DNA of 53,190 nt. Source: Magnetococcales bacterium (GTDB lineage: Bacteria > Pseudomonadota > Magnetococcia > Magnetococcales > Magnetaquicoccaceae). Within the stretch, counting starts at the first letter, position 1; each line of letters starts with the position of its first letter. The DNA is taken from the NCBI GenBank assembly GCA_015231915.1, contig JADGAR010000024.1, positions 1 to 53,190 of the forward strand, in the 5' to 3' direction. The notes beneath the pieces are model-generated. The model had not been told where the DNA came from. It was given only the letters and a program-made list of their open reading frames with translations, and ran no database searches. Below, in pieces: positions 1 through 21,165 of the stretch. The translations under genes and the position numbers were made by a program.

Positions 1-48
1 CAGCCGTTTCAAGGCCCAGTCAAACGTGATGAGACGGCGTCCGGTCAT
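1..48 (-). CDS. Rpn-family nuclease, second tandem copy (5' end only)
   Basis: Only the first 16 codons lie inside the window; the gene runs off the left edge. The peptide (MTGRRLITFDWALKRL) is identical to the start of the complete gene at 45-1037, and the DNA at 1-64 matches 990-1053 with a single mismatch. Its ATG overlaps the TGA of that upstream copy (ATGA), and its ribosome binding site AAGGAGG sits inside the last codons of the upstream copy. This is a tandem duplicate, probably translationally coupled. Whether it is intact cannot be seen. Confidence 0.75.
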   Translation of the reverse strand, partial: MTGRRLITFDWALKRL

Positions 49-1037
49 GGTGAATCCTCCTTGCGCCACGCTTGCAGATCGGAGAAGAGTTCCTCCAGGG
101 ATGCGGCAGCAAAGATCGCCAGGCTCCACCGATCCAGGACAGAGGGATCCGCCTCGGCAATTCTGGCCATGACCCAATCGGGAAGCGGGCCGAAACGGCT
201 TTGGAGTTGACGGGTCAGCAGGTTGATCTCACCCTCCCGCCTGCCCTCCCGCCTGCCCTCCCGCCTGCCCTCCCGCCTGCCCTTCCTTTCCCCCTCCAGC
301 ATGCCCGCACCCCAGGTCGATTCCACCATGCTGGCCTGGAAATGCAGATCCTCCTGGTAGCGTTCGTATGCCCGGCGCTCGGCTTCCGGCAGTTGCAGGA
401 GATCCAACACCTCCTTGGCCTTTTTGATCCCCCGGGCCGAAAACTCCTCGCGGATGTCACCGGTCTTCAAAAAATAGACCCACTCGTCCAGCGTGTTGCG
501 GGCCACTTCATCGAAACGGTTGACACGGATCAGGTAGATCTCCGGAAAGATCTCCCGCACGGTTTGGTGACGAAACATCTGCTGCTGGGCTTCGCTCAAC
601 AGCAGTTCGTCATGGGTATGCATGCCCTTGAAGGTGGTCGTGCCATGATAGATATAATCCTGACCCTGGCCGATGTCGAAATGCAGGATACTGATTGCAA
701 TCACCTTGGGGACTTTGGAATACGCCGCTCCCGCATCCACATGCTCGGTGATCGTCTTGGCGATCCCGAAAAGCAGCCGTTGCAGATAATCGTGCTGCCG
801 TTCGTATTGCAACTCGATCAGGATCAACTCATTCCGGCTGTTCCTGACCTTCATGTCCACGCGGTTGTATTTGTCGAGCGCCTCTTCCCGATTGCTTTCG
901 CTTTCCAGAATCTCGACGATTTTGATATCCGTCGCCAGCAATTCGCTCAAAAAACCTTCCAGGACCTCGAAGTTGGCCTTGCTGCGCAACAGCCGTTTCA
1001 AGGCCCAGTCAAACGTGATGAGACGGCGTCCGGTCAT
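45..1037 (-). CDS. Rpn-family PD-(D/E)XK nuclease/transposase-like protein with DUF4351-type C-terminus
   Basis: This 330-residue protein belongs to the recombination-promoting nuclease (PDDEXK_2, 'putative transposase') group. The active-site pattern is visible in the N-terminal third: a D in VDMKV followed by the E-x-Q strand ELILIELQYE. After a helical middle comes a hinge of four GRRE repeats, then a segment of DUF4351 type (LLTRQLQSRFGPLPDW...ASLEELF). The start was set at 1037 rather than the longer open frame to 1142 because AAGGAG lies about 8 bp upstream and the domain begins right after it. Family members are DNA endonucleases linked to RecA-independent recombination and, in some cases, phage defence. 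It is followed directly by a second copy whose start overlaps its stop. The exact role is unknown. Confidence 0.85.
   Translation of the reverse strand: MTGRRLITFDWALKRLLRSKANFEVLEGFLSELLATDIKIVEILESESNREEALDKYNRVDMKVRNSRNELILIELQYERQHDYLQRLLFGIAKTITEHVDAGAAYSKVPKVIAISILHFDIGQGQDYIYHGTTTFKGMHTHDELLLSEAQQQMFRHQTVREIFPEIYLIRVNRFDEVARNTLDEWVYFLKTGDIREEFSARGIKKAKEVLDLLQLPEAERRAYERYQEDLHFQASMVESTWGAGMLEGERKGRREGRREGRREGRREGEINLLTRQLQSRFGPLPDWVMARIAEADPSVLDRWSLAIFAAASLEELFSDLQAWRKEDSP
234..281. repeat. 12-bp tandem repeat x4 in the Rpn hinge
   Basis: Four exact copies of CTCCCGCCTGCC (plus strand) lie end to end. On the minus strand they encode four GRRE units between the nuclease part and the DUF4351-like tail. 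The unit is a multiple of three, so gain or loss of copies would change hinge length without a frameshift. Confidence 0.9.
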
Positions 1038-1117
1038 GGTGAATGCTCCTTGCCTGCGGCAGTTCATCCGGAGTTGCTCTCTCCTGACGGACCCATGATA
1101 AGGCGAACGGAAATGAC

Positions 1118-1147
1118 TTGACAAGCGCGTCCTTGCCACCATAGCAT
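1118..1147 (+). promoter_or_regulatory. Candidate sigma-70 promoter of the cobalamin riboswitch transcript
   Basis: A perfect -35 TTGACA at 1118-1123 is followed after 18 bp by TAGCAT at 1142-1147 (4 of 6 matches to the -10 consensus). This would start transcription near 1154, just before the riboswitch begins. The position relative to the aptamer supports the call; the -10 is weak. Confidence 0.5.
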
Positions 1148-2897: not shown

Positions 2898-3560
2898 TCA
2901 TTCACTGCGTTCCACCGGCAAATCGGCACGGCGCCACTCGGGAAACCCCTCCTCCAGGCGCCGTGCCGCAAATCCCCGCTCCCGCAACCGGGCCACGGCC
3001 TCGAAGGCGAGCACGCAAAAGGCGCCGCGACAATAGGCCACCACCTCCCGATCCGGCGGCAATTCGTGCAACCGCCGCTCCAGCTCCCGCAGTGGAATGT
3101 TGAAGGATCGGGGCAGATGACCGGCTGCATACTCCTCCGGGGGACGCACGTCCAAAACGGTCACCGTCCCGTCCCGCATCCGTTCCAGCAGAACCTCCCT
3201 GGGCAGGGGTTCCATGCCGTCCTTGGTCAACAGATAATGACTGACCAGTTCTTCCACCTCGGCGAGATGACGCTCCGACAAACGCCGGATCACCCCCAAC
3301 AGCGTGACCACCTCCGGGTCGGAGAGCCGATAGTGAACATACAACCCCTCCTTGCGCGCCTGCACCAACCCGGCATGGCGCAACTGCTGCAAATGCTTCG
3401 AGGTGTTGGCCACCGTCAGCCCGGTCAGGCGCGTCAATGCCTCCACGCTCCGCTCCCCCTGTGCCAGAAATTCCAGGATTTCCAACCGATGCCCCTGCCC
3501 CACCGCCTTGCCGATGCGCGCCAGTTGCTCGAACAACTCCTGCTTGAAAGAACTCGACAT
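2898..3560 (-). CDS. ArsR-family transcriptional regulator fused to a rhodanese domain
   Basis: Residues about 1-100 form an ArsR/SmtB-type winged helix (GQGHRLEILEFLAQGERSVEALTRLTGLTVANTSKHLQQLRHAGLV). Residues about 120-220 form a rhodanese domain (TVLDVRPPEEYAAGHLPRSFNIPL) with the active-site loop YCRGAFC. The 220-residue two-domain layout is a known ArsR subgroup in which the rhodanese part may sense persulfide or a thiol-reactive species; that sensing role is inference. The start at 3560 has AAGGAG at the right spacing; an open frame continues upstream but has no support. It is divergent from the cytochrome/ArsM operon and separated from it by a perfect dyad (3683-3708), so it is the probable repressor of that operon and of itself. 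Confidence 0.88.
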   Translation of the reverse strand: MSSSFKQELFEQLARIGKAVGQGHRLEILEFLAQGERSVEALTRLTGLTVANTSKHLQQLRHAGLVQARKEGLYVHYRLSDPEVVTLLGVIRRLSERHLAEVEELVSHYLLTKDGMEPLPREVLLERMRDGTVTVLDVRPPEEYAAGHLPRSFNIPLRELERRLHELPPDREVVAYCRGAFCVLAFEAVARLRERGFAARRLEEGFPEWRRADLPVERSE

Positions 3561-3653
3561 CAATCTCCTTGCCCACCCGGAATCCATATTCATTGCAAAT
3601 TGAAAGCACCATGTTTCCAGAACGGAAAATCCGAGGCAAGTGCAATAAAATGC

Positions 3654-3682
3654 TTGACAGGAAATAGAATCTTTGCTTGAAT
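3654..3682 (+). promoter_or_regulatory. Candidate promoter of the multihaem/ArsM operon
   Basis: A perfect TTGACA -35 at 3654-3659 is followed after 17 bp by TTGAAT at 3677-3682. The predicted transcription start falls in the adjoining 26-bp dyad, a layout expected for repression by an ArsR protein. A second reading, TTGCTT-16 bp-TATAGT, would put the -10 itself inside the dyad. Confidence 0.5.
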
Positions 3683-3708
3683 ACAATTCAACCATATAGT
3701 TGAATTGT
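3683..3708. promoter_or_regulatory. Perfect inverted repeat, probable ArsR-type operator
   Basis: Ten-base arms ACAATTCAAC and GTTGAATTGT are separated by CATATA. ArsR/SmtB operators are commonly AT-rich 12-2-12-like dyads of this kind. It lies between the divergent ArsR-rhodanese gene and the hydroxylase/cytochrome operon, and directly after a good promoter. Binding is inferred from sequence and position. Confidence 0.75.
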
Positions 3709-3801
3709 GGTCGCTCTCCTGGCACCGCCCGAGATGTACCACCATGTGCGAAGATGCGATCCCTGTTGTCAAGAGCGGCGATGCGCTGAGGAGAATGCAG
3801 A

Positions 3802-4623
3802 ATGGAACAGGATGCTGTGTTGCGATTGGGCATTTTTTTGGGGGTATTCGTGCTGGTGGCGGTTTGGGAGGGGGTCGCGCCCCGCCGCAAACGCACCCTC
3901 ACCCGCCGGGAACGCTGGCTGCCCAATCTGGGCCTGGTGGCCATCGATACGGCACTGGTGCGCCTGCTGTTTCCCGTGACGGCAGTGGCGCTGGCGGCCT
4001 TGGGCCAACAGCGTGGATGGGGTATGCTCAACCAGTTCAGCTGGCCGGAATGGGAAAAAGTTTTGTTGGCGGTTATCCTGCTGGACTTGGTGATCTATCT
4101 GCAGCATGTCGCCTTCCACGCCCTTCCCGTGCTGTGGCGGCTGCATATGGTCCATCATGCCGATCTGGATCTGGATGTGACTTCCGGATTGCGCTTTCAT
4201 CCTGTGGAAATCCTTCTGTCCATGGGGATCAAGCTGGCGGCGGTGCATGCCATCGGCGCCCCGCCATCGGCGGTATTGATCTTCGAGGTGCTGCTCAACG
4301 GCATGGCCATGTTCAATCATGGCAACATCCGTATGCCGGAAAGGATCGACCGCACCCTGCGCTGGTTGCTGGTCACCCCGGACATGCACCGCTCCCACCA
4401 CTCCCATCTGGCTCCGGAGGCCAACATGAACTTCGGTTTCAATCTTTCCCTGTGGGACCGAATCCTGGGAACCTATTGGCCAAAACCGGTCGAAGGTCAT
4501 GAAGAGATGGAGATCGGCCTGGAGCATCAGCGCGAACCGAAGCAATGTCAACCTCTGATGGCCCTGCTGCTGATGCCCGTGCGTGCCAAACTGGGGGAAT
4601 ACACCATCAACCGGCGTTGGTGA
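3802..4623 (+). CDS. Sterol desaturase / fatty acid hydroxylase family di-iron membrane protein
   Basis: The 273-residue membrane protein carries the histidine clusters that bind the di-iron centre in this superfamily: HVAFH (H-x3-H), HMVHH (H-x2-HH), a lone H in FNHGN, and HRSHH. Several hydrophobic helices surround them. Such enzymes use oxygen to hydroxylate or desaturate lipids at the cytoplasmic membrane. It is the first gene of the operon under the ArsR-type dyad, with GAGGAG ahead of the ATG at 3802, and the next gene begins 11 bp after its stop. Its link to the cytochromes that follow is not obvious: it could modify a membrane lipid or an alkyl metabolite. The substrate cannot be read from the sequence. 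Confidence 0.85.
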   Translation: MEQDAVLRLGIFLGVFVLVAVWEGVAPRRKRTLTRRERWLPNLGLVAIDTALVRLLFPVTAVALAALGQQRGWGMLNQFSWPEWEKVLLAVILLDLVIYLQHVAFHALPVLWRLHMVHHADLDLDVTSGLRFHPVEILLSMGIKLAAVHAIGAPPSAVLIFEVLLNGMAMFNHGNIRMPERIDRTLRWLLVTPDMHRSHHSHLAPEANMNFGFNLSLWDRILGTYWPKPVEGHEEMEIGLEHQREPKQCQPLMALLLMPVRAKLGEYTINRRW

Positions 4624-4634
4624 AGGACAGGGAC

Positions 4635-5876
4635 ATGGCCATGACCCAGCAAACCACTGCCATCATGGAGCGCGATGCAGGCGTGGATGCTCGCACCAGG
4701 ACGAAAGCCGTTCCCCGCCGCATCATCCCCGTGCACCTCATGCCGGCAGGACAGCAGCGCTCTCTGGCCGGTCGCTACGCCTGGCAGGTCAAGGCGCTGT
4801 GCTGGGTGGCGTTCGCCTGGGCGTTTCTCGGCTGGCTCAACGACGCCTGGTTGTTTCAATTCGGCACGCCGTTGTGGCTCAACCGTTACACCGAACAGGC
4901 GATCATTCTGGCATTCGGCGTCTGGCGCATTCTTGCGGAAAAAAATCCCTACACCCGCAAACGTCTGCTCATCCTGGTGACCAACGTGACGGTGTTGTGG
5001 TGGCTCATCCCCTGGGCCTGGCCGTTCATCGAGCCGCACGCGGGCTATCTGGCGGGGCTGCCGGCCTTTCCGGCGCTGCACACCCCAGGCACCATCACCT
5101 TCTTTCTGGTGCTGACGGCGGTGTTTCTCTTCGGGCGGCGGGTCATCTGCGGCTGGAACTGCCCCTGCGTGGGAATCCGCGAGGTGGTGGGATTTCCGTT
5201 CCGGCATGCCGATCATGTGCCGCGCTCGGCATGGGCCTGGCGACTGCGGCATCTCAAATGGATCTGGTTTGCGCTCTATCTGGGCGCGATGTGGGCCGTG
5301 ACCCGCCCGGCGAACAACATCACCTCCGGTTTTCTCGGCTTTTTCGCCATGATGGTGGTGCTGCCCTATTTCGCCACCATGCTGCTCGCTCCCTGGCTCG
5401 GCAATCGGGGCTACTGCCGCTTCCTGTGTCCCTATGGCGCCACCTTCGGACTGCTCAACAAGGTGGGGATGTTTCGCATCGATTATGCGGAGGACACTTG
5501 CATTCGCTGCGGCAAATGCGAAAAAGTGTGCGACATGAACATCCCGGTCTGGAAAATGGGGCTGGCCCATCAGGGCAAGGTGGACACCACGGAGTGCATG
5601 GGGTGTGGCCGCTGCATCACCGATTGCCCCACCGGCAGCCTGGCCTTCCGGGACGTGCGCAATCTCCTGCAACCCTCCCTGCGGCAAGACCGGAGGCATC
5701 TGCTGCGACGGGTGAATTGGCAACAGATGGCCGTGCGCTGGCGCTTCGCCGGCTATCTCCTGGTGATGGCCGGCGTCCTGGGGGGGGCGATTCACTACTC
5801 CGGCCTGGTGGGCACCCTGGGCGAACTTCCGATACGAATGGGGGCGATATGCGGATTGCCGGTTATCTCCTGGTAA
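4635..5876 (+). CDS. NapH/NosR-type 4Fe-4S membrane protein
   Basis: The 413-residue protein has about six membrane helices and the cysteine motifs of the NapH/NosR/CcoG group: membrane-linked CGWNCPC and CRFLCPYG, then two ferredoxin-type clusters, CIRCGKCEKVC and CMGCGRCITDCP. Members pass electrons between the quinol pool and periplasmic or Fe-S partners. The first ferredoxin motif ends in VCDMN rather than the usual CP. ATG at 4635 was chosen because AGGACAGGG precedes it; ATG 4641 is possible. Its 3' end overlaps the octahaem cytochrome gene by 28 bp, so this protein is the likely membrane electron donor or acceptor for that cytochrome. A final helix follows the ferredoxin part. Function in this operon is inferred from context. 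Confidence 0.85.
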   Translation: MAMTQQTTAIMERDAGVDARTRTKAVPRRIIPVHLMPAGQQRSLAGRYAWQVKALCWVAFAWAFLGWLNDAWLFQFGTPLWLNRYTEQAIILAFGVWRILAEKNPYTRKRLLILVTNVTVLWWLIPWAWPFIEPHAGYLAGLPAFPALHTPGTITFFLVLTAVFLFGRRVICGWNCPCVGIREVVGFPFRHADHVPRSAWAWRLRHLKWIWFALYLGAMWAVTRPANNITSGFLGFFAMMVVLPYFATMLLAPWLGNRGYCRFLCPYGATFGLLNKVGMFRIDYAEDTCIRCGKCEKVCDMNIPVWKMGLAHQGKVDTTECMGCGRCITDCPTGSLAFRDVRNLLQPSLRQDRRHLLRRVNWQQMAVRWRFAGYLLVMAGVLGGAIHYSGLVGTLGELPIRMGAICGLPVISW

Positions 5877-7162
5877 TTTTTTGCCTTTTGTCGTGGCCCG
5901 CCCTGGCAGGCATTGGCGAGACAGGCACGGGGGAGTTCGCGGGGCATTGGCGTCCCGACCCCATGCACGAATACTGGGATCCGGCAACCTATCACCGTCC
6001 GGAAACCGAACGGGTGGCAGGGGTGTTCAAAGGCGAGGAGTGCGTGGAGTGCCACTTGGCGATCACGCCAGGCATCGTCAAGGAGTGGCGGACGAGCCGG
6101 CATGCCCAGGCGGAAAAACCGGTGCTCTGTCCCGCCTGCCATGGCGAGGATCACCAGAAATTGATCTTCCCCACGCCGCAAACCTGTGGCACCTGCCATC
6201 CGCAGCGGCTGGCCCAGATGGAGGAAGAGAAGAAATACGGCTTTCCCAGCCATGCCCTGGCCATGGAACGGGCGGTGGACAGCAAACACTTCGCCGACAA
6301 GCCCAAGGCCGAGGTGACCTCCTGTCTGCAGTGTCACTCGGTGGCCAGCAAGTGCGACTCCTGTCATACCCGTCATCGTTTCGATGCCGCCGAGGCGCGG
6401 CGTCCGGAGGCCTGCATCACCTGTCACAGCGGCCCCCCCCATCCGGACGACGAGGCCTTTTTCGCCAGTGCGCATGGACGCAAGTATCGCCTGGAAGGAA
6501 AAACCTGGGAGTGGAAGAGACCCTTGCAAAAAGGCAACTATCCGGCCCCGACCTGCGCCTACTGTCACATGAGGGACGGCAACCATCAGGTGGCGGACAA
6601 GGCGGTGTGGAAGTTCGGCATCCGGGAGGTCAATCCGGCCAGCGCGGAAAACAACATCAAGCGCAAGCGCTGGATGGAACTGTGCGCCGATTGCCATCCC
6701 GATGAAATTGGCAAAACATTTTTTCAGGCGTTGGACAGCGAACGCTCCAGCGCATGGAAAAAGCTTTACAGCGTCGAAAAATGGCTGAAAAACCTGCGCA
6801 GCGATGGTCTGCTCTCCCCGGCGGCCAGCGAGCGCCCCCCCTACCCCATGGAGTGGCTGGCCACAGTGTGGCCCAGGGAACGGATCGGTTTTTACGAGGG
6901 GCAGGCCTCGGCCTTCTACAACGTCAGCGCCATCGAACGGGACTATTTCGAGATGTGGTATTTTTCCAATTTGGGCGCCTACAAGGGGATGGCGCACGGC
7001 GCCGGAGAGATGTCGCAGCGGTTTCACGAGCGCATGGATGCCGAGGCGCATGCCATCGGCACCGAGGCCGAGCGTCTGCGGGGCATGCAAAAAGAGGGCA
7101 TGGACTTGAAATCCTTGTGGATGCGTGGCGAGTATACGGAATTCAATCGTGATCACAATTAA
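5849..7162 (+). CDS. Octahaem c-type cytochrome, hydroxylamine oxidoreductase (HAO)-like
   Basis: A signal peptide (MRIAGYLLVIFCLLSWPALA) leads into eight CXXCH haem motifs with their first Cys near residues 65, 94, 113, 159, 169, 189, 236 and 279. Spacing and text between them (EWRTSRHA, CPACHGEDH, RRPEACITCHSGPPHPDDEAFFASAHG) match the HAO family. The 437-residue length is shorter than classical HAO of nitrifiers and closer to reductive or unassigned members. The C-terminal 150 residues are haem-free and helical. Periplasmic. It overlaps the NapH-like gene, suggesting electron exchange with the quinone pool, as expected for a reductase of nitrite, hydroxylamine or another oxyanion; an arsenic- or sulfur-related substrate is equally possible given the regulator and ArsM gene. 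Whether the HAO cross-linking tyrosine is kept could not be decided by eye. Confidence 0.85.
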   Translation: MRIAGYLLVIFCLLSWPALAGIGETGTGEFAGHWRPDPMHEYWDPATYHRPETERVAGVFKGEECVECHLAITPGIVKEWRTSRHAQAEKPVLCPACHGEDHQKLIFPTPQTCGTCHPQRLAQMEEEKKYGFPSHALAMERAVDSKHFADKPKAEVTSCLQCHSVASKCDSCHTRHRFDAAEARRPEACITCHSGPPHPDDEAFFASAHGRKYRLEGKTWEWKRPLQKGNYPAPTCAYCHMRDGNHQVADKAVWKFGIREVNPASAENNIKRKRWMELCADCHPDEIGKTFFQALDSERSSAWKKLYSVEKWLKNLRSDGLLSPAASERPPYPMEWLATVWPRERIGFYEGQASAFYNVSAIERDYFEMWYFSNLGAYKGMAHGAGEMSQRFHERMDAEAHAIGTEAERLRGMQKEGMDLKSLWMRGEYTEFNRDHN

Positions 7163-7188
7163 CACGCGGCAGGCAGGAGGTTTTTTTT

Positions 7189-8172
7189 ATGGCCACACCT
7201 ACCCCTGACACACGCAACCTCACCCGATGGCTGATCGGCGTGGCGATGCTGGTTGCCTTGATCCTGGCCTGGTTGCATCGCGACCAGTTCGATCCGATCC
7301 GGCTGGAGGCCTGGATACGCGACTGGGGAATGGCGGGCATGGCGCTGTTCGTGGCGATCTATGCTTTGGCCACGGTGCTGTTTCTGCCCGGATCGGTCCT
7401 CACCCTGGCCGGGGGGGCGATGTTCGGCCCCTGGCTGGGAGGGGGATTGAGCCTGCTGGGCGCCACCCTGGGGGCGGGTGTGGCGTTTCTGATTGCCCGC
7501 CATCTGGCCGGGGAGTGGGTGGCGCAACGGGCACAAGGCATGACGGCCCGCCTTTTGACCGGCGTGGAACAGGAGGGGTGGCGTTTCGTGGCCTTTGTGC
7601 GACTGGTGCCGGCATTCCCTTTCAATCTGCTCAATTACGCGTTGGGGTTGACCCGCATCCGTTTCGACCACTATCTGCTGACCTCGCTGATCTGCATGGC
7701 GCCCGGCGGTCTGGCCTACGCCTGGCTGGGTCATGCCGGACGCGAGGCGGCCTCCGGCAGCGCCGACGCGGTGCGCGCCGGGCTGTGGGCCTTGGCGCTG
7801 TTGACCGTGGTCCTGCTGATTCCCCGCTGGATCCGCAAGGCACGCGCGCAGGAAAGCCGCATCACCATTGCCCGTCTGCGGGAGATGCTGAACCAGAACA
7901 ACGATCTCGTGGTGCTGGACGTGCGGGATGCCGCCGATTTTGTCGGCGAAAACGGCCATCTGCCCGGTTCCATCAACATCCCGCTCCCCGAACTGGAGGC
8001 CCGCATGGCGGAGGTGCGCCGCATCGGTCGTCCCCTGGCGATCATCTGCCACACCGATCGCCGCTCCACCGAGGCGATCCGTCGCCTGGAGGCGCAAGGG
8101 ATCGGGCCGCTCCATCTGGTACTGGGCGGCATGAAGCAGTGGCGGCAAGAGGGCCTCCCGGTGGAACGGTGA
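7189..8172 (+). CDS. TVP38/TMEM64 (DedA-like VTT) membrane protein fused to a rhodanese domain
   Basis: Residues about 1-215 are a TVP38/TMEM64-type membrane domain: helices with the re-entrant motif LPGSVLTLAGGAMFGPWLGGG and the later RLVPAFPFNLLNYALGLTRI. Residues about 225-327 are a rhodanese domain (LVVLDVRDAADFVGENGHLPGSINIPL) with active-site text ICHTDRRS, where the catalytic Cys is present. The ribosome site AGGAGG lies about 8 bp before the ATG. VTT proteins act in membrane lipid or small-molecule transport; several bacterial members sit in selenium or mercury gene sets. This is the second rhodanese of the locus, after the regulator, which hints at sulfane sulfur or a chalcogen/metalloid substrate. 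The J-domain gene starts one base after its stop. Confidence 0.85.
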   Translation: MATPTPDTRNLTRWLIGVAMLVALILAWLHRDQFDPIRLEAWIRDWGMAGMALFVAIYALATVLFLPGSVLTLAGGAMFGPWLGGGLSLLGATLGAGVAFLIARHLAGEWVAQRAQGMTARLLTGVEQEGWRFVAFVRLVPAFPFNLLNYALGLTRIRFDHYLLTSLICMAPGGLAYAWLGHAGREAASGSADAVRAGLWALALLTVVLLIPRWIRKARAQESRITIARLREMLNQNNDLVVLDVRDAADFVGENGHLPGSINIPLPELEARMAEVRRIGRPLAIICHTDRRSTEAIRRLEAQGIGPLHLVLGGMKQWRQEGLPVER

Positions 8173-8173
8173 G

Positions 8174-8560
8174 ATGGACGCAACGCCCCAAAAGCTTTTG
8201 CAACGGATCACCGAGGCGCGTCAGACCCTCGATCTTGGCGAGGAGGCCACCCTGGCGGAGATCGAGGCTACGGTCAGGACCCTGCTCAAGCGGTGGCATC
8301 CGGATCGCTGCCAGGAGGATCCGCAGCGCTGCACGGAGATGACCCGCCGGATTCTGGAGGCCAGCAAGACGCTCCGCGACTACTGCGCCAACTATCGCTT
8401 CTCCTTTCGCCCCGAAGAGGTGGAAAAATACCTCTCCCCGGCAGAGTGGATGGAAAGCCGGTTCGGAGGCAAGCCTTTCTGGGCTTCCGGAAAAGAGGGG
8501 AGCATCACGACGGCTGACCAGCACCGGGTCACCAAAAAACGCCAGGGAGGCCGGGAATGA
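8174..8560 (+). CDS. Small J-domain (DnaJ-like) protein
   Basis: The 128-residue protein carries a J-domain signature: helix II text TLAEIEATVRTLLKRWHPDRC, with the HPD tripeptide needed to stimulate DnaK, and a following helix RRILEASKTLRDYC. There are no Gly/Phe or zinc-finger regions. It begins one base after the TVP38-rhodanese stop and overlaps the next cytochrome gene by 4 bp (ATGA), so it is firmly inside the operon. Three cysteines near the HPD motif and helix III could bind metal or be redox-active. A dedicated cytosolic co-chaperone for maturation of the cytochromes or the Fe-S protein is a reasonable guess. HPD is seen directly; the role is inference. Confidence 0.8.
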   Translation: MDATPQKLLQRITEARQTLDLGEEATLAEIEATVRTLLKRWHPDRCQEDPQRCTEMTRRILEASKTLRDYCANYRFSFRPEEVEKYLSPAEWMESRFGGKPFWASGKEGSITTADQHRVTKKRQGGRE

Positions 8561-9267
8561 AACAGATACTCTGGTTGACGCTCCTGATCGCCATGTCGAT
8601 CCAGGGACGGGGTTGGGCGGAAGAGTGCCTCTCCTGTCATCGCCAACGGGATGCCGTGGTGACCGCCGCCTGGGAAAAAAGCCGTCATGCCATGGCGGAA
8701 GTCACCTGCACGGCCTGTCACGGTGTTGCGCACGACGGCGGCATGACGGCCCGCGCCCGACGCAACGAGGCCTGCACCACCGGTTGCCATCCACGCGAAA
8801 ACGGCAGCCATGCCTTGTCCAAACACGGGGTGATCGCTGTCATGGAAGGAGAGCGGCTGGATTTCAACCTGCCCTTGAAGGAGGGCAACCAGCGCACCCC
8901 GACCTGCGCCTACTGCCACATGCACGCCAACGAACACGACACGGCGAAGGTCTCCCGCGACATCCCCTGCCGGGATTGCCACTCCCCGCGCTTCGTGGAG
9001 ACCTGGTTTGCCAGCGGTGACCAGATGGTGGCAATCGGAGACATGAAACTGCGCGAAGCCGAAGCCGTGGCCGCCGGATCCAATGACCCGGAAATGCGCG
9101 ACCTCCTGCACCGGATGCGGGATGTTCATCTGCGCAACGTGCGCCTGGGGGTGGGCCATGCCTCCCCGGACGACCAGTGGTGGCACGGTCATCCGGCCCT
9201 GGACGGGGACCTGCTGCGCATCAAGTCGCTGATGCAAACCCTTCACAATCGGAACCAATCACGATGA
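8557..9267 (+). CDS. Five-haem periplasmic cytochrome c with one CXXXCH site
   Basis: A signal peptide (about 21 residues, ending GRGWAEE) precedes four CXXCH motifs (first Cys near 24, 51, 117 and 138) and one expanded C-x3-C-H motif (CTTGCH, near 73). The text around them resembles the front half of HAO-like octahaem proteins (CHRQRDAVVTAAWEKSRHAMAEVTCTACHG; PTCAYCHM), as if it were a shortened paralogue of the octahaem cytochrome at 5849-7162. The C-terminal 90 residues lack haem and are rich in His and Met. At 236 residues it could be an electron-transfer partner or subunit of the octahaem enzyme. It overlaps both neighbours by 4 bp. CX3CH sites are uncommon; haem binding there is expected but not certain. 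Confidence 0.8.
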   Translation: MKQILWLTLLIAMSIQGRGWAEECLSCHRQRDAVVTAAWEKSRHAMAEVTCTACHGVAHDGGMTARARRNEACTTGCHPRENGSHALSKHGVIAVMEGERLDFNLPLKEGNQRTPTCAYCHMHANEHDTAKVSRDIPCRDCHSPRFVETWFASGDQMVAIGDMKLREAEAVAAGSNDPEMRDLLHRMRDVHLRNVRLGVGHASPDDQWWHGHPALDGDLLRIKSLMQTLHNRNQSR

Positions 9268-10286
9268 ACAATACAAAATCAGATCAGGAAGCGCTCAAAC
9301 GCTATTACGGCATGGTGCTGCAAGGCAGTCAGGACCTGCAGACCAGTGTCTGCTGCGCGGCGAATGCGGGTGTGACGCCCGACATCAAAACGGCCCTGGC
9401 ACGGATCGACGCCGAAGTGCTGAATCGGTTCTATGGCTGCGGCTCCCCCCTGCCTTCCTTGCTGGCGGGCTGTACGGTGCTGGATCTGGGCTGCGGCTCC
9501 GGTCGCGATGTCTATCTGGCGTCGCAACTGGTGGGTAACCATGGACGGGTGATCGGCATCGACATGACGGAGGCCCAACTGGCGGTCGCCCGCGCCCATT
9601 TGCAAAGCCAGATGGCCCGTTTCGGATACGACCGTCCCAACGTGACGTTCCTGCAAGGCTACCTGGAGGACCTGCGCTCCCTGGGGATCGAAGACGACTC
9701 CGTGGATGTAGTCATCTCCAACTGTGTTCTGAATCTTTCGCCAGACAAACGCGCGGTCTTTGCCGAAATCTTCCGGGTGTTGCGACCTGGAGGCGAACTG
9801 CTCTTCGCGGATGTCTTCGCGGATCGACGGGTGCCCGCCCCGCTGCGAGCCGATCCCGTCCTGCACGGAGAATGCCTGGCCGGAGCCATGTACCGGGAGG
9901 ATTTCCGACGACTGCTGCGCGACATGGGGTGCCTGGACTACCGGGTGACCGCGTCCCATCCCGTCACCATCGACAACCCGGAGGTGGAACGGCGCATCGG
10001 CATGGTGGATTTTCTCTCCCTGACCGTGCGTGCCTTCAAGCTCGCCGACCTGGAAGATCCGGGCGAAGATTACGGTCAGGTGGCGACCTATCACGGCTCC
10101 ATTCCGGAGTGGCCGCACCGTTTCGATCTGGACAACGCCCACCGTTTCCCCACCGGCAAGCCCGTGCCGGTCTGCGGCAATACCGCCTCCATGCTGGGCA
10201 ACACCCGCTATCGGAACCATTTCACCGTGCGGGGGGACCGTTCCGTCCACTACGGTCTCTTCTCTTCGAGTGCGCCCAGCCCGTGA
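9264..10286 (+). CDS. arsM: Arsenite S-adenosylmethionine methyltransferase (ArsM-like)
   Basis: The protein (340 residues) has a class I SAM-binding fold (VLDLGCGSGRDVYLASQLVG; later FRVLRPGGELLFADV). The three cysteines used by ArsM to bind As(III) appear in the right text: C59 in YGCG, C154 in NCVLNLS and C204 in ECLAGA; the last two are 50 residues apart, as in characterised ArsM. A CC pair lies at 30-31. Expected reaction: stepwise methylation of arsenite to volatile methylarsines, in the cytoplasm. Some relatives may handle other thiol-bound metalloids. ATG at 9264 overlaps the cytochrome stop (ATGA), making this the last gene of the operon under the ArsR-type dyad. Its 3' end overlaps the convergent nucleotidyltransferase gene by 37 bp. 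Confidence 0.88.
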   Translation: MNNTKSDQEALKRYYGMVLQGSQDLQTSVCCAANAGVTPDIKTALARIDAEVLNRFYGCGSPLPSLLAGCTVLDLGCGSGRDVYLASQLVGNHGRVIGIDMTEAQLAVARAHLQSQMARFGYDRPNVTFLQGYLEDLRSLGIEDDSVDVVISNCVLNLSPDKRAVFAEIFRVLRPGGELLFADVFADRRVPAPLRADPVLHGECLAGAMYREDFRRLLRDMGCLDYRVTASHPVTIDNPEVERRIGMVDFLSLTVRAFKLADLEDPGEDYGQVATYHGSIPEWPHRFDLDNAHRFPTGKPVPVCGNTASMLGNTRYRNHFTVRGDRSVHYGLFSSSAPSP

Positions 10287-11646: not shown

Positions 11647-14600
11647 ATGAAAATCCTGCCATGGCTCGCCAATTTATTCAAACACGACGAACCCAGACCG
11701 CCCCCGCCACCACCAGCAACACGTACCAACCTGGCCCTGCGCCTGGAAAAAAGGCTGATGTTCGACGCATCGGGCGTACTGACCGCCATCGCGGCGCTCC
11801 ATCACGACCCGCACGGGGATGGCGGCGATCATGGCGCAGACCATGACGGCGATCACACCGGCTTTGCCCCCCCCCAACCCGACGACGCCTCTCCCTCCCC
11901 CAGGGAGATGATCTTTGTCGATCCCACGGTGGAAAACCATGAAGCCCTGCTCAAGGATCTGCCGCAAAACGCCCAGGTGGTGATGCTCGACCCCCACAAG
12001 GACGGCGTGGAACAGATTCGCGCCGCACTGGCGGGCCACTCCGGCATCCAGACCCTCCACATCGTCTCCCACGGCAGCGCCGGCTACCTGGAACTGGGCG
12101 GCTCGGAACTCGACGTGGTCAACCTGGAATCCCGTGCCCAGGCGCTGCAGGACTGGGGCACGGCGATGTCGGAAAACGCCGACATCCTCATCTACGGCTG
12201 CGATGTCGGAGACGGACTGGAGGGCGGGGCCTTCGTCACCCGCATGGCAGAACTGACCGGGGCCGACGTGGCCGCCTCCAGCAACCTCACCGGGGCCTCG
12301 GCGCGCGGCGGCGACTGGATCCTGGAAATCCATTCCGGCACCATCGAGTCCAACATCTTTCTCTCCGGGCAGGCGCGCATCGAATACACCGGCATCCTCC
12401 CGTCAGCCAACCCCATCCTGGCCAACGTGCATGGCGACTCCCTGGCCTACGCGGAAGGTGGCGGCGCCGTGGTGATCGACCAGGGGGGCAACGCCACGGT
12501 GACCGATGCCGACAACATCAACTTCTCCGGGGGCGCCCTGACGGTCGCCATCACCACCAACCGGGATGCCACCGAGGATGTGCTGGCCATCCGCAACCAG
12601 GGGACCGGCGCGGGTCAAATCGGACTCTCCGGGGCCAACGTCACCTATCAGGGCACCGTGATCGGCACCTTCGCCGGAGGAACCGGAACCAACGACCTGA
12701 CCGTCTCCTTCAACGCCAACGCCACCGCGACGGCGGTCTCGGCTTTGCTGCGCAACATCACCTACACCAATACCGATACCACCACCCCCACGACCAACAC
12801 CCGCGACATCTCCTTCTCCATGACCGATGGCAGCGGCGGGGTTTCCGGCACATCGATCGCCGGCGTGACGGTCTCGGGTGTCGATGACGCCCCCACCCTC
12901 ACCGCCGGGGCCACCCTCAACTACACGGAAAACAACGCAGCCACGGTCATCGACGCCTCCATCACCGTGGCCGACGTGGACAGCACCAACATGCAAAGCG
13001 CCACCATCACCATCTCCGGCAACTACCAAAGCGCCGAAGATGCGCTGGTCTTCACCAATACCGCCAACATCACCGGCACCTGGAACGCCGCCACCGGCAC
13101 CCTGACCCTGACCGGAACCGACAGCAAGGCCAATTATCAAACCGCGTTGCGCTCGGTGAAATACGTCAACTCCAGCGACGCCCCCACCACCACCCCGCGC
13201 ACGGTGGCCTTCCAGGTCAACGACGGCACCTCTGCCAGCACCGCCGCCACCGCCACCATCAACATCGCCGTGCTCAACGACGCCCCAACCCTGACCGGCA
13301 CCCAATGGTTCACCCCATCCGTCGAGCGCACCGATACCACCAATGCCGGCGCGGTGGTCTCCAGCCTGTTTGCCGCCGGCGACATCACCGATCCCGACGC
13401 CGCTCCCCAGTCGGGCATCGCCATCTACTCCCGCAACAACAACGGCCTCGGCTCCTGGCAATACCGCATCGACGGCGGTGCCTGGCAAAACCTGCCAGGC
13501 GGCCTCAACCCCAACCATGCCCTGCTGTTGAAATCCACCGATGAAATCCGCTTCCGACCCAACAACTCGGGCGGCGGTCAGCCCACCCTCTCCTTCTACG
13601 CCTGGGATCGCAGTGACGGCGGCACCCCCGGCAACCAGGTAGATGCATCGATACGCGGCGGCACCACCGCCTTCAGCATGGCTTCCGGCACCATCAACGG
13701 CACGGTCAACGCCGCCCCGGTCCTGGATACCTCCACCAGTGTCGCCATGCCCACCATCACCGAGGACGCCCTGACCAACACCGGACAAGTGGTCAGCACC
13801 CTGGTGAGCGGCCTGATCAGCGATATCGATACCGCCTCCCAGACCGGCATCGCCATCCAAAGCGCCTCCACCAGCAACGGCGCATGGCAGTACTCCACCG
13901 ACGGCGGGACCAACTGGTCGAACGTCGGCACCGTCTCCACCGCGCAATCGCTCCTGTTGCGCTCCACCGACCGAGTCCGTTTCCTGCCCGATGGCATGAA
14001 CCCGCCCAACAACACCGCGCCAGGCAACCTCAACTTCACCTTCGTGGCCTGGGACAGCACCGGACAATCCTCCACATGGAGCGCCGGCAGCAAGGTCTCC
14101 ACCGCCTCCCGCGGCCTGGCCACCCCCTTCTCGACCAGCGTGGAAACCGCCGACATCGCCGTCACCAACCTCAACGACGCCCCGGTCATGACCGCCATCG
14201 CTCCGGTTATGCCGACCATCCAGTATACCGACACCAATAACGCCGGCATCACGGTTTCCAGCCTCGTGGGCGCATCCATCGCCGACGTGGATGCGGTCAC
14301 CGCCCCGCAAGAAGGGATCGCGATCTACTCGATCAACAACGGCACCGGCTCCGGCTTCTGGGAGTTCTCCACGGACAACGGCGCCACCTGGACCGCCACC
14401 GGCGCGGTCAACGGCACCTCTGCCCTGCTGCTGCGCGCCCAGGACAAGATCCGCTTCCAGCCCAACACCCTCACCACCAACGACGCCGCCAGCTTCAGTT
14501 ATTACGCCTGGGACCAGACGCAAATCGCCGGAGGACAAGGGACCAAAACCGATGTCTCGACCCGCGGCGGAACCACGGCCTTCTCCAGCGGATCGGACAC

Positions 14601-17600
14601 GGCCAACATCAACATCAACGTCGCACCCACCATGGATCCAGCAGGCACCCCCACCCTGCCCACCATCACCGAGGACATGACCACCAATACCGGAGCGCTG
14701 GTCTCCACCCTGCTGAGCGGGGCCGGCGATATCGACGTGGGGGCATCCAGTGGCCTGGCCATTTATGGCCTGACCAGCGGCAACGGCACCTGGCAGTACA
14801 ATACCGGTTCCGGATGGGTCAACATCGGCGCGGTCAGTTCCACCTCCGCCCTGCTGCTGCGGGATAGCGATTCGATCCGCTTCGTGCCCAACGCCATCAA
14901 GGCCACCTCCGGCACCCTCTCCTTCTACGCCTGGGACCGCACGTCAGGGACGTTCGGCACCAAGGTGGATGTCTCCACGCGCGGCGGCACCACCGCCTTC
15001 AGCACCACCGGCGAAACCGCCAGCGTCACCGCCACCGAGATCAACGACACCCCCACCCTGACCGTCGGCGGGAGCTTCACCTTCACCGAAGGGGGGGCCG
15101 CCACCGCCGTCAAGAACACCCTCACCCTGTCGGATGTCGATGACAGCAACATCGCCGGTGCCACGGTTCGCATCACCTCCAATTACGTTTCCGGCGAGGA
15201 TGTGCTCTCTTTCACCAATCAGGCCGGGATCACCGGCTCCTGGGATGCCGCCACCGGCACCCTGACCTTGACCGGCACGGCCACCAAGGCGCAATACCAG
15301 ACCGCCCTGCGTACCGTCGCCTACCAGAACATCACTACCGCCCGACCCAGCGTGGCCAGCCGAACCGTCACCTTCACCATCACGGACGGCAACTCCGACG
15401 GCACCGGGGCCGGCGCCCTGACCGCCTCCGCCACCCGCACCATCGCCATCGCCGCCGTCAACGACGCCCCGACCCTGAGTGCCACAATCGCCCCGTTGAG
15501 CATCACCGAAGGAGATGCCGCCACGACCCTGGACAGTGGCATCAGCCTGGCCGATGTGGACGACGCCAACATCACCGGCGCCACGGTACGCATCACCGGC
15601 AATTATTTATCCAGTGAAGATGTGTTGTCTTTCACGAATCAATTGGGCATCACCGGTTCCTGGAACGCCGCCACCGGCCAGTTGACCCTCTCCGGGACTG
15701 CCAGCAAGGCCGATTACCAGACCGCGCTGCGCGCCATCACCTATCAGAACACCAATTCCGACAATCCGAGTGTCGCCTCCCGCACCGTCACCTTCACCAT
15801 CACGGACGCCAACTCGACGGGTGAAGGGGCCGGCGCCCTGACCGCATCTGCCACCCGCACCATCACGGTCGCTGCGGTCAACGACGCCCCCACTTCCTCG
15901 ACCACCGTCGCCGCCCTCTCCTACGCCGAGGACAGCGTGGCAACCGCCGTGGACAACGGCTTTTCCCTGGCCGACGTGGACGATGCCAACATCGCCGGGG
16001 CCACGGTGCAGATTACGGGGAATTATTTTTCCAGCGAGGATCTCCTGTCATTCACCAATCAATCCGGTATCACCGGCTCCTGGAACGCGGCCACCGGCAC
16101 CCTGACCCTGACCGGTACGGCCACCAAGGCGCAATATCAAACCGCCCTGCGCTCCATCGGCTACACGAACACCAACCACGACACCCCCAACCTGGCCACG
16201 CGAACCGTCACCTTCATCGTCACCGACACCAATTCCAATGGTCAGGGCAGCGGCGCCCTTGCGGTCACCTCCACCCGGGATATCGTGGTGCTCGCGGTCA
16301 ACGACGCTCCGGGTGTTGCCACCACGGCAGCCCCCCTGGCCGTCACCGAGGGGAATGCCGCCACGATTCTGGACTCTGGCATCAGCCTGACCGACGTGGA
16401 CGACGCCAACATCGCCGGGGCCACGGTGCAAATCACCGGTAATTATCTCTCCAGCGAAGATGTTCTCTCGTTCACCGATCAGGCCGGCATCACCGGTTCC
16501 TGGAATGCTGCCACCGGCACCTTGACCCTCTCCGGGACCGCCAGCAAGGCCGCCTATCAGGCCGCCCTGCGCTCCATCACCTATCAGAACACCAACTCCG
16601 ACAATCCGAGTGTCGCCACCCGCACCGTCACCTTCTCGGTCACCGATACCAATTCGAATGGGGAAGGGAGCGGCGCACTCACCACCACCGCCACCCGCGA
16701 CATCACGCTTGCCGCTGTCAACGACGCCACCGGCATCACCACCACCCCCACCCCACTCGACTACCAGGAAAGCGCGATCACCGCTGTGGACGACAACCTG
16801 AGCCTGGCGGATGTGGATGACGACACCATCGTGGGCGCAACCGTAAAAATCACCAGTAATTTCCTCGCCAGCGAGGATCAGTTGATCTTCAACAATCAAT
16901 CCGGAATCACCGGAACCTGGGACGCCGCTACCGGAACGCTGACCCTGACCGGCACCGCCAACAAGGCCACTTATGAAACCGCCTTGCGCTCGATTGGTTA
17001 CCTCAACAGCAATGACGCCAACCCCTCGACCGCCCTCCGCACCGTCACCTTCTCGGTCACCGACGGCAATTCGAACGGTGAAGGAAGCGGCGCGCTCACC
17101 ACCACCGCCACCCGCGACATCGTCGTCAACGCGGTCAACGATGCCCCAGGCGTCGTCACCACCTCCACCCCCCTGATTGTGGCGGAAGGCGACCCGGCCA
17201 CCCCGGTGGATCCGGAGTTGAGCCTGTCCGATGTGGATGACGACAACATCGCCGGGGCCAGCGTGCAAATCACCGGTCGCTATCTCGCCAGCGAGGATCT
17301 GCTCTCTTTTACCAACCAGGCCGGAATCACCGGCTCCTGGAACGCCACGACAGGTACGTTGACGCTGACCGGTACCGCCAGCAAGGCCGCCTACGAGGCC
17401 GCGCTGCGCTCCGTCAACTATACAAACACCAACAACGCCGCCCCCATGGCCGGCGCCAGGACCATCACCTTTTCGGTCACCGACGCCAACTCGAACGGGG
17501 CAGGATTGGGTGCGCTCACCACCACTGCCACCCGCGATGTCGTGGTGAATGTCGTCAACGACACCCCGGAAATCGCCACTTCCCCGGAGGTGACGCGCTT

Positions 17601-18966: not shown

Positions 18967-18971
18967 TGGCA

Positions 18972-19035
18972 CATGGATTGCTTTCGATCATTGAGATGGT
19001 TTCCCCCAGGATCTCGTGACCGAAAGCAATCCATG
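18972..19035. promoter_or_regulatory. Long inverted repeat between giant gene and secretion genes
   Basis: Perfect 15-bp arms CATGGATTGCTTTCG (18972-18986) and CGAAAGCAATCCATG (19021-19035) enclose an inner stem GAGAT/ATCTC (18993-18997 with 19011-19015) and a C-rich loop. The right arm contains the ATG of the first adaptor gene and the left arm another in-frame ATG. No T-run follows, so it is not a standard terminator. In RNA it would bury the start codon, which suggests translational control or an mRNA stability element separating the giant gene from its transporter. Confidence 0.75.
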
Positions 19036-19806
19036 ATCGCATCCTTTGTCCGCATTGCGCGTTTTTTGTTTGTTGCCCTGTTGCTGTCGGGTGCTCCCCT
19101 GGTGGTGTCCGCCGGTCAGGATATGAACGCGCGCACGGAGATCCGCGCCTATCTGGTGCCCCGGACCCATACCACCCTCTCATCCCACATCGACGCCGAG
19201 ATCCAACGCCTGCCGGTCCAGGAAGGGAGCGCCTTTGCCGCCGACGCCCTGCTGGTGGCCTTCGACTGCGCCACGCTTGCGGCCCAGCACGCCAAGGCCA
19301 AGACCGCCCTGCATGCGGCAGAGGAGAAACATCGGGTGGTCCAACGTCTGGCAGAACTGCACTCCGTGGGAACCCTGGAGGCCGACGCCAGCCGCGCGGA
19401 TCGCGACCAGGCCGAAGCGGATGTGAAACTGCACGAAACCCGGTTGCGTGGATGCCGGATTTCCGCCCCCTTCGCCGGACGGGTCGGCACGCTCTCGGTG
19501 CGGGAGCGCCAGTATGTCACCACCGGGCAGGCGCTGATGAAGATTCTCGATCATCGTCACCTGGAGATGGAGATGATCGTCCCCTCCCGCTGGCTGGGCT
19601 GGCTGCAACCCAAGACCAAATTCACCATGCATATCGACGAGACCGGCAAGGAGTACCCCGCGCAGGTGGTACGCCTGGGCGCGGAGGCCGATCCGGTGAG
19701 CCAGTCCATCAAGATCGTTGGCGCCTTGATGGGAGACCATCCGGACCTGGTCCCCGGCATGAGCGGTGCGGCCATTTTCACGCCCCCCGGCGGGAACGGG
19801 AAGTGA
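19033..19806 (+). CDS. Periplasmic adaptor (HlyD/RND membrane-fusion) protein
   Basis: This is a 257-residue membrane-fusion-type protein with a signal peptide (MIASFVRIARFLFVALLLSGAPLVVSA). A split lipoyl/barrel-sandwich domain flanks a short helical hairpin (ALHAAEEKHRVVQRLAELHSVGTLEADASRADRDQAEADVKLHETRL), followed by the return strand CRISAPFAGRVGTLSVRERQYVTTGQALMKIL and a beta-barrel region. Such adaptors bridge inner-membrane exporters and TolC-type channels. ATG 19033 starts the signal peptide; the upstream in-frame ATG 18973 would add 20 unlikely residues. Both ATGs lie in a strong hairpin and neither has a good Shine-Dalgarno sequence. It lies 66 bp after the giant gene and 3 bp before the next adaptor, so export of the giant protein is the most likely job. 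Confidence 0.8.
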   Translation: MIASFVRIARFLFVALLLSGAPLVVSAGQDMNARTEIRAYLVPRTHTTLSSHIDAEIQRLPVQEGSAFAADALLVAFDCATLAAQHAKAKTALHAAEEKHRVVQRLAELHSVGTLEADASRADRDQAEADVKLHETRLRGCRISAPFAGRVGTLSVRERQYVTTGQALMKILDHRHLEMEMIVPSRWLGWLQPKTKFTMHIDETGKEYPAQVVRLGAEADPVSQSIKIVGALMGDHPDLVPGMSGAAIFTPPGGNGK

Positions 19807-19809
19807 GCC

Positions 19810-21165
19810 ATGGCGGTTCAAGGGGAAAAACTGATCCTGGGATTGAGCGCCCTGCTGCAACTGGGCAAACGGGCCTTTGCCGCCGAAGACGAGGCGGCAT
19901 TCGGCTTTCTGGTGGTCAACGAAACCCACCTCATGACCCCCTATCGACAGGCGGTACTGTGGCGGCATGTCGAATTCAAAACCGGCGAGGTGGTGGCGCT
20001 GTCCGGCTCACCGGATCCGAGCAAGCGGGCACCCTATGTCGCCTGGCTGACACGGCTCTTCTCCCTGGAAAAGTTGACCAAACAGAAAGTGCCGCTCTGC
20101 CTGACCTCCGCCGATCTCCCCGGTGAGGACGGAGAGGCATGGGAACAGTGGCTGCCCGCGCATGCGGTCTGGGCGCCCCTGACCACCGGACTCGGCAACC
20201 GGATGGGGGGGTTGCTGCTGGTCAAATCGGTCCCCTGGACCGATCCGGAACTCAAGCTGCTCGCCAAACTGGCTGACGCGTATGCCAACGCCTGGGAACT
20301 GGTGCGCAAACGCGCCCAGACAAAGGGCATCCCGTGGCGCAACATCCTGACCAAACAACAAGGCCGCATGCGCCTGGGTGTTGCGCTGCTGTTGTTCATG
20401 CTCTGCTGGGTGCCGGTGCGGGAATCGGCGCTGGCCCCGGCCACGGTGGTGCCCAGCCGTCCCACCCCGGTACGCGCGCCGCTGGAAGGGGTGGTGGAGC
20501 GACTGCATGTGGAACCCAATCAGCCGGTCAAGGCAGGGGATCTGCTCTTCACCATGGACGAGGCGGTCCTGGAAAACAAACTGGAAGTGGAAAAACAGGC
20601 CGGCGCCATGCTCCAGGAGGAGTATCTCCAGATCCTCAAGCAGGCGGTCACCAACCAGGAAAGCCGCGCGCAGAAACGGATCCTGGAAAAACGGATCGAC
20701 AAGCAGGCCGCCGAAAGCAACGGGGTGCGCATCCTCCTGCAACGGACGCGGGTGACCGCTCCGGAGGAGGGCGTGGCCATCTTCACCGACGCCAATCACT
20801 GGCGGGGCAAACCGGTGATGACCGGAGAACGGGTCATGGAGATCGCCGATCCCAAGGCCGCCGAACTGGAGGTCCGCCTGCCGGTCAACGATGCCATTGC
20901 CTTCGGCAACGGGGCCGGGGTGACGCTCTACCCGAACATGGATCCGCTCGCCACCTGGTCAGGCACCGTCATCCGCATCGGCTACGAGCCGCAGGAAATG
21001 GAAGGGGTCCTTTCGTATGCCGTTCGCGCCTCCTTTGCGGGTTCGGTCGAGCCGCCACGCATCGGTCTGCGTGGCACGGCCAAAATCCAGGGAGAGCGGA
21101 CCACGCTGTTTTATTATCTCTTCCGGCATCCGCTTTCGCTGCTGCGGCAGCGGTTGGGCCTGTGA
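19810..21165 (+). CDS. Membrane adaptor with N-terminal GAF-like domain and HlyD-type domain
   Basis: The 451-residue protein has an unusual order. Residues about 1-180 look like a cytoplasmic GAF-type domain (FGFLVVNETHLMTPYRQAVLWR...WAPLTTGLGNRMGGLLLVK). One membrane helix follows (MRLGVALLLFMLCWVPV, near 190-207), then a periplasmic HlyD-like part with two barrel-sandwich halves (VRAPLEGVVERLHVEPNQPVKAGDLLFTMDEAVL and TRVTAPEEGVAIF) around a coiled coil. A cytoplasmic sensor linked through the membrane to an export adaptor could gate secretion. It is coupled to neighbours: 3 bp after the first adaptor, and its stop overlaps the GTG of the next gene. Ligand and partners are unknown. Confidence 0.75.
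   Translation: MAVQGEKLILGLSALLQLGKRAFAAEDEAAFGFLVVNETHLMTPYRQAVLWRHVEFKTGEVVALSGSPDPSKRAPYVAWLTRLFSLEKLTKQKVPLCLTSADLPGEDGEAWEQWLPAHAVWAPLTTGLGNRMGGLLLVKSVPWTDPELKLLAKLADAYANAWELVRKRAQTKGIPWRNILTKQQGRMRLGVALLLFMLCWVPVRESALAPATVVPSRPTPVRAPLEGVVERLHVEPNQPVKAGDLLFTMDEAVLENKLEVEKQAGAMLQEEYLQILKQAVTNQESRAQKRILEKRIDKQAAESNGVRILLQRTRVTAPEEGVAIFTDANHWRGKPVMTGERVMEIADPKAAELEVRLPVNDAIAFGNGAGVTLYPNMDPLATWSGTVIRIGYEPQEMEGVLSYAVRASFAGSVEPPRIGLRGTAKIQGERTTLFYYLFRHPLSLLRQRLGL

Follow-up and report, generated by a model that had tools for sequence, protein, structure and literature searches.

The window analysed here is the whole 53,190 nucleotide stretch of contig JADGAR010000024.1 from a Magnetococcales bacterium (assembly GCA_015231915.1, forward strand, positions 1 to 53,190). 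It contains an operon (3802-10286) that encodes an HAO-family octahaem cytochrome c, and this operon is read divergently from a gene (2898-3560) in which an ArsR-type DNA-binding domain is fused to a rhodanese domain. The gene cluster is conserved and apparently undescribed so far. The reading preferred here, which as a whole has about the same probability of being right as of being wrong, is that sulfur-oxidizing Proteobacteria have in this locus a divergon with a single target.

HAO-like octahaems are found in many sulfur oxidizers that do not nitrify, and the locus bears on their role there. It supplies a defined and conserved set of partners, a regulator with a candidate pair of sensing cysteines, and a single operator. 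From the single operator and the candidate cysteine pair it follows that the inducer should be findable by one assay, and that the substrate can be narrowed down from there. The analysis also tells a conserved sulfur core apart from the arsenic genes that have repeatedly settled beside the locus.

Conservation of the Locus

The source genome (G000; 4.02 Mb in 133 contigs, rated 100% complete) belongs to the Magnetococcales, where the octahaem is present in 27 of 48 genomes when partial matches are counted. Among named carriers, Magnetococcales bacterium WMHbin3 is nearest, its octahaem being 89% identical to that of the window. In the 84,980 species genomes that were scanned, 447 octahaem relatives were confirmed, mostly in sulfur-oxidizing Proteobacteria. 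Locus counts given below refer to the best 80 of these 447 relatives, for which the sequences were fetched, and counts out of 81 refer to these 80 together with the window. In this set, octahaem identity is 60-89% within the Magnetococcales and 54-63% outside them, where the carriers are sulfur-oxidizing Gammaproteobacteria (including Thiodiazotropha, Thiogranum, Thiohalobacter, and tubeworm symbionts), Thiobacillus, Sulfuritalea/Rhodocyclales, a few Alphaproteobacteria, and two Nitrospinota.

The neighbourhood is kept over the 80 loci in Magnetococcales, in Gamma-, Beta-, and Alphaproteobacteria, and in Nitrospinota. Its recurrent core consists of the divergent ArsR-rhodanese gene, a di-iron protein of the fatty-acid-hydroxylase type, a TVP38-rhodanese protein, a NapH-type Fe-S membrane protein, the octahaem, and a pentahaem cytochrome. 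Many contigs are cut, and with this limit the pentahaem gene is seen in 75 of the 80 loci, NapH in 71, ArsR-rhodanese in 56, TVP38 in 48, and the hydroxylase in 41. The usual order in the Magnetococcales is ArsR-rhodanese divergent from (hydroxylase)-NapH-octahaem-(DsrE)-TVP38-rhodanese-(J-domain)-pentahaem, while in the Gammaproteobacteria it is hydroxylase-TVP38-rhodanese-(TauE)-(DsrE)-NapH/flavoprotein fusion-(small cytochrome c)-octahaem-pentahaem. Genes for DsrE (PF02635) and TauE (PF01925) thus recur as additions to the operon in relatives. The locus in the window is without the DsrE gene, which its closest relative has, and carries a J-domain gene, which occurs in 6 of the 81 loci and in some Magnetococcales only.

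The first-pass annotation of the window had described one tightly coupled, regulated operon, and all the genes that it named are present, several of them overlapping: the NapH and octahaem genes share 28 bp, the J-domain and pentahaem genes 4 bp, and the pentahaem and ArsM genes 4 bp. It had also suggested that the gene set might be new, and no description of this set was found in the open-licence literature searched. For Candidatus Magnetaquicoccus inordinatus, one of the carriers (L059), the genome paper (PMC6783814) describes sulfur oxidation by reverse Dsr; its text contains neither the word hydroxylamine nor the word rhodanese.

The membrane protein resembles NapH-type proteins in its membrane 4Fe-4S and Cys-Pro motifs, but its score of 87.7 bits lies far below the NapH family cut-off of 213, and the locus contains no Nap gene. 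A difference from NapH-type proteins is seen in the Gammaproteobacteria, where most homologues are fused to an Fer4_20 + Pyr_redox_2 flavoprotein module, closest to GltD/AegA. From this fusion to an NAD(P)H/FAD module it follows that the membrane protein is there likely to be reduced from NAD(P)H. An Fe-S membrane protein does adjoin the octahaem as first proposed, while the flow from quinol to a periplasmic oxyanion that was suggested for the pair is made uncertain by the gammaproteobacterial fusion.

Regulator and Operator

The dyad between the divergent genes, ACAATTCAAC-CATATA-GTTGAATTGT, has perfect 10-bp arms, and its core, ATTCAA-N8-TTGAAT, occurs in one exact copy in the whole source genome. 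In front of homologous regulator genes the core is found exactly at 29 of 49 loci and with at most one mismatch at 37 of 49, the corresponding numbers for shuffled sequences being 0 and 0.1. Because the core is unique in the source genome and recurs before the homologous regulator in other genomes, the dyad is not due to chance; it is a conserved putative operator. The control by an ArsR-rhodanese protein that the first-pass annotation proposed is supported. An exact copy lies at this locus in many octahaem-bearing relatives, and some relatives have copies elsewhere. The motif also led to an ArsR-rhodanese gene in two relatives with no detected octahaem; motif and gene are there about 45 bp apart, and the gene lies at the end of a contig.

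Only two cysteines of the regulator, C178 and C183, are invariant (49 of 49 aligned), and both are placed in the rhodanese loop, which reads YCRGAFC in the window and mostly YCRGxxC across the 49. The ArsR domain has no cysteine in the window and no conserved one in the aligned regulators. Cysteines confined in this way to the rhodanese loop point to sulfane sulfur and not to arsenite. In SoxR and sHdrR, sulfane sulfur bridges two cysteines (PMC12423496), and by analogy with these proteins sulfane sulfur would be the natural candidate for the signal here. Arsenic, selenium, and sulfane sulfur had all been put forward initially; the link to sulfur stands, while the cysteine-free ArsR domain argues against arsenic or selenium as the core. 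The repressors SqrR, BigR, SoxR, and sHdrR share with the window regulator the ArsR fold, an AT-rich inverted-repeat operator, and sulfur genes as targets. Their two sensing cysteines are, however, in the ArsR protein proper, whereas the pair in the window is in the fused rhodanese, through which the regulator may act in an SqrR-like manner. Profiles of defence systems gave generic helix-turn-helix matches to the regulator and nothing else.

In one genome (G034) the same regulator and operator stand only with the hydroxylase and the TVP38-rhodanese gene. The three genes also occur together in a closed genome (G027), where no exact operator accompanies them. From this it follows that regulator, hydroxylase, and TVP38 can form a group from which the cytochromes are missing. 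These minimal loci, in which ArsR-rhodanese is divergent from hydroxylase and TVP38-rhodanese, lie at L199:8455-11325 and L214:8330-11594. The G027 locus has in addition a DsrE-like gene and, downstream, a gene resembling that of cytochrome c'. In the window, a nitroreductase/BluB-like gene (2199-2873) adjoins the 3' end of the regulator gene, and a homologue is found in this place only in the closest relative.

The Octahaem and Pentahaem Cytochromes

All 81 octahaems have eight CxxCH motifs, and the CxxCK active-site haem that marks the octahaem tetrathionate and nitrite reductases (OTR and ONR) is absent from them. Along most of its length the octahaem aligns (HMMER) with anammox HAO and hydrazine dehydrogenase (HDH; 4n4j, 6t5e, 6hif), the best profile E-value against solved chains of the HAO family being 3e-77. 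Consider then the active site in the numbering of Nitrosomonas europaea HAO, which we take to have haem 4 at C229-H233 and the residues D267, H268, Y334, and Y467 to compare with. The site of Asp267 is Pro in all 81 octahaems, while H268 is kept. The site aligned with the Tyr that is common to Kuenenia stuttgartiensis HAO and HDH is occupied by R391 in the window and by Tyr in none of the 81; two residues past this crosslink site, 78 of them have a His (H393). The region of haem 4 (C159-H163, H198, P199, D200) is invariant in all 81. Of the marks of an oxidative, P460-type HAO, the 81 sequences have the haem arrangement but neither the crosslink Tyr nor Asp267, and since both are missing throughout, the octahaem is predicted to be a reductive-type enzyme of the HAO family. 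The pattern matches that of the reductive HAOs, which are reported to be without the crosslink Tyr and for whose ancestor a His has been inferred at the key site (PMC12758564).

Anammox HAOr and epsilon-HAO are similar to the window octahaem in having eight CxxCH motifs in the HAO order, a His near the crosslink site, and no crosslink Tyr. The window protein differs from them in being shorter (about 437 residues), in having Pro for Asp267, and in its setting under an ArsR-rhodanese regulator, where a pentahaem derived from HAO and a NapH-type membrane protein are its partners. The orange octahaem BOGUAY_0691 of the Beggiatoaceae, with relatives in SUP05, is also HAO-like and also belongs to sulfur oxidizers (PMC6449678). 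It has, however, 511 residues and is encoded near napAB (PMC6449678); judged by length and neighbours, the two cytochromes are probably not identical.

The pentahaem protein is by profile search a truncated HAO paralogue, and a structure model of moderate quality matches HAO weakly. Its C-terminal motif, GHxSPDxQWWHGxPALDGDLLRIK, is conserved. Two Nitrospinota carry tandem repeats of a unit made up of the pentahaem gene's final ~75 bp, its stop codon, and a short tail (L080:10968-11335, period 97 bp, 3.8 copies; L079:2672-2919, period 98 bp, 2.5 copies), and the tail sequences differ between the two.

Proposed Mechanism

The ligand of the regulator, the direction of electron flow, and the substrate of the octahaem we infer as follows. 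Bound to ATTCAA-N8-TTGAAT, the ArsR-rhodanese protein would repress the operon as well as its own gene. Loading of C178 and C183 with sulfane sulfur (persulfide, polysulfide, or sulfur derived from thiosulfate) would make the repressor let go, and the operon would then yield membrane and sulfur-handling proteins: the di-iron hydroxylase and TVP38-rhodanese, with DsrE or TauE in relatives. The NapH-type protein, fed by quinol or, in Gammaproteobacteria, by the attached NAD(P)H/FAD module, would hand electrons to the periplasmic pentahaem and octahaem, and the octahaem would most likely act on oxidized sulfur or nitrogen species that arise in sulfide oxidation. ArsM would be an additional enzyme, serving to methylate arsenite under the same sulfidic conditions. 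That the locus is such a rhodanese-sensed, reductive octahaem electron-transfer system of sulfur oxidizers is a proposition with an even chance.

Several observations weigh on the other side. The gene dsrA is present in 26 of the 27 octahaem-bearing Magnetococcales but likewise in 17 of the 21 octahaem-negative ones, so that sulfur oxidation does not set the octahaem system apart. The loci of G034 and G027 imply that the regulator's signal need not be the same as the octahaem's substrate. The structure model of the octahaem is too poor for use (predicted local distance difference test, pLDDT, 61). Finally, to our knowledge all characterized HAO-family enzymes act on nitrogen compounds, which means that a sulfur substrate would be a first.

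As substrates of the octahaem, sulfur species are slightly favoured over nitrite, NO, or hydroxylamine, and arsenic has a low probability. In its most novel form, the proposal would make the octahaem-pentahaem pair the first HAO-family enzyme with a physiological sulfur substrate (sulfane sulfur, polythionate, or a thiolated oxyanion, including thioarsenate), with NAD(P)H or quinol supplying electrons by way of the NapH-type protein, and switched on by a rhodanese-based sensor of sulfane sulfur. Taken together, these two parts form a claim that is rather unlikely as it stands. If it were true, the arsenic-methylation genes that recur next to the locus would be in keeping with thioarsenate chemistry in sulfidic water.

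Alternative Explanations

The octahaem may instead be a nitrogen enzyme, i.e., a reductase of nitrite, NO, or hydroxylamine that protects or serves sulfur oxidizers, with a regulator that just reports ongoing sulfide oxidation. This is a serious alternative, though one with clearly less than even chances. Membership in the HAO family is in its favour, as are the reduction of nitrite to NO by the Tyr-free anammox HAOr (PMC12758564) and the nitrite reductase and hydroxylamine oxidase activities of the Beggiatoaceae octahaem (PMC6449678). However, nitrogen genes are absent from the conserved part of the 80 loci, and the conserved neighbours are sulfur-handling. Furthermore, napA is present in 9 of 27 octahaem-bearing and 8 of 21 octahaem-negative Magnetococcales genomes; since its presence does not track the octahaem, a link to nitrate respiration was also rejected. 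In the source genome napA lies on another contig (C41), outside the operon.

The first-pass annotation had proposed a possible metalloid system. In such a system arsenic, thioarsenate, or selenium would be sensed, the octahaem would reduce a metalloid species, and ArsM would complete the detoxification. The ArsM of the window is indeed intact, with four conserved cysteines (C30, C59, C154, C205) and not three as first counted; they align with those of solved ArsMs (best E-value 5e-107, 5evj), and the gene overlaps that of the pentahaem. Outside the Magnetococcales, ArsS is over its cut-off in 40 of 50 carriers and lies within 10 kb of the octahaem gene in 10 of these, compared with about 0.24 expected from genome size (40 x 20 kb / 3.3 Mb). 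In all, ArsM or arsenosugar genes stand beside the octahaem gene in 17 of the 81 loci, and on the tree of octahaems 12 changes of the arsenic-linked label are required, of which well-supported branches force at least seven.

Against a metalloid core stands the distribution of the same genes. A strong ArsM is found in eight Magnetococcales genomes, and in this locus in two of them (the window and G044), at different positions. Outside the order it is found in 15 of 50 carriers and is linked to the locus in five. It is missing from most loci, and from behind the pentahaem gene in the closest relative. ArsS is near universal in the Magnetococcales with or without the octahaem and is not beside it there, so that co-occurrence within this order is uninformative. 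In the source genome ArsS is on contig C51, and ArsS and the TIGR04282/TIGR04283 glycosyltransferases are absent from the locus in the window. Several relatives do have an ArsS gene with two glycosyltransferase genes next to the octahaem gene, as in arsenosugar clusters, whereas the window has ArsM alone, outside the conserved core. The locus differs also from a classical ars operon: the ArsR domain is without As(III) cysteines and the operon encodes no arsenite efflux pump. No Acr3 was found at an E-value of 1e-60 in the source genome, while most near relatives have one, and ArsM may be the main arsenic defence of this organism. No clear relation emerged for Acr3.

Arsenic genes have thus come to this locus repeatedly without being part of the core. 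An arsenic core was rejected on the distribution of ArsM together with the cysteine pattern of the regulator, and the metalloid system is improbable; what speaks for it is that genes of arsenic methylation or arsenosugar synthesis have come to lie next to the locus on several independent occasions. Homologous operons generally without ArsM and rhodanese genes had been named as evidence that would speak against it: a search of other genomes shows that ArsM is not a rule, whereas the core including the rhodaneses is conserved.

In G035, the ArsM and octahaem genes are both at contig ends that share repeat-like sequence, and adjacency across the break was rejected as the 3' end of the ArsM gene faces the contig end, so that the operon does not simply continue into that gene. 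A small methyltransferase gene (MT13) is found repeatedly close to where the locus ends downstream, in L085, L091, L098, L106, L118, and L125; some MT13-bearing loci also have a mercuric-reductase-like flavoprotein, and both stand before arsenosugar genes.

That the multihaem proteins are a mere conduit for electrons between the cytoplasm or quinone pool and the periplasm or cell exterior, with no substrate of their own, would suit the NapH-FAD fusion, the pairing of octahaem with pentahaem, and the missing parts of the known HAO active site, but is very improbable, as the haem 4 region is invariant in all 81 octahaems, as expected for an enzyme.

Features of the Window

Table 1. Features of the divergent locus, with positions in the window.
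Feature	Position	Strand	Basis and remarks
ArsR/SmtB-type helix-turn-helix + rhodanese fusion	2898..3560	-	Pfam HTH_5 + Rhodanese; probable sulfane-sulfur-responsive repressor
Putative operator ATTCAACCATATAGTTGAAT, core of perfect 10-6-10 dyad	3686..3705		Conserved before homologous regulators
Membrane di-iron hydroxylase, fatty-acid-hydroxylase family, distantly OlsE-like	3802..4623	+	PF04116, E-value 1.4e-26
NapH/MauN-like membrane protein, two 4Fe-4S ferredoxin motifs + Cys-Pro motifs	4635..5876	+	Pfam ferredoxin domains
Octahaem cytochrome c, HAO family, predicted reductive type	5849..7162	+	8 CxxCH; Pfam Multi-haem_cyto; HAO/HDH homology
TVP38/VTT membrane domain + rhodanese fusion, active loop CHTDRRS	7189..8172	+	PF09335 + PF00581
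Small J-domain protein, HPD motif present	8174..8560	+	PF00226
Pentahaem cytochrome c, truncated HAO-family paralogue	8557..9267	+	Four CxxCH + one CxxxCH
ArsM arsenite S-adenosylmethionine methyltransferase, accessory gene	9264..10286	+	Pfam SAM methyltransferase; four catalytic cysteines kept

The score of the di-iron hydroxylase with the OlsE model is far under the cut-off of that model. Downstream of the operon, the stretch 11647-21165 holds the gene for a repeat-rich protein of 2439 residues that looks cadherin-like by eye and, after it, two export genes of the HlyD type. A YhgA-like Transposase_31/DUF4351 (Rpn-type) protein is encoded at 24563-25537 (+), and a similar-looking protein at 45-1142 (-).

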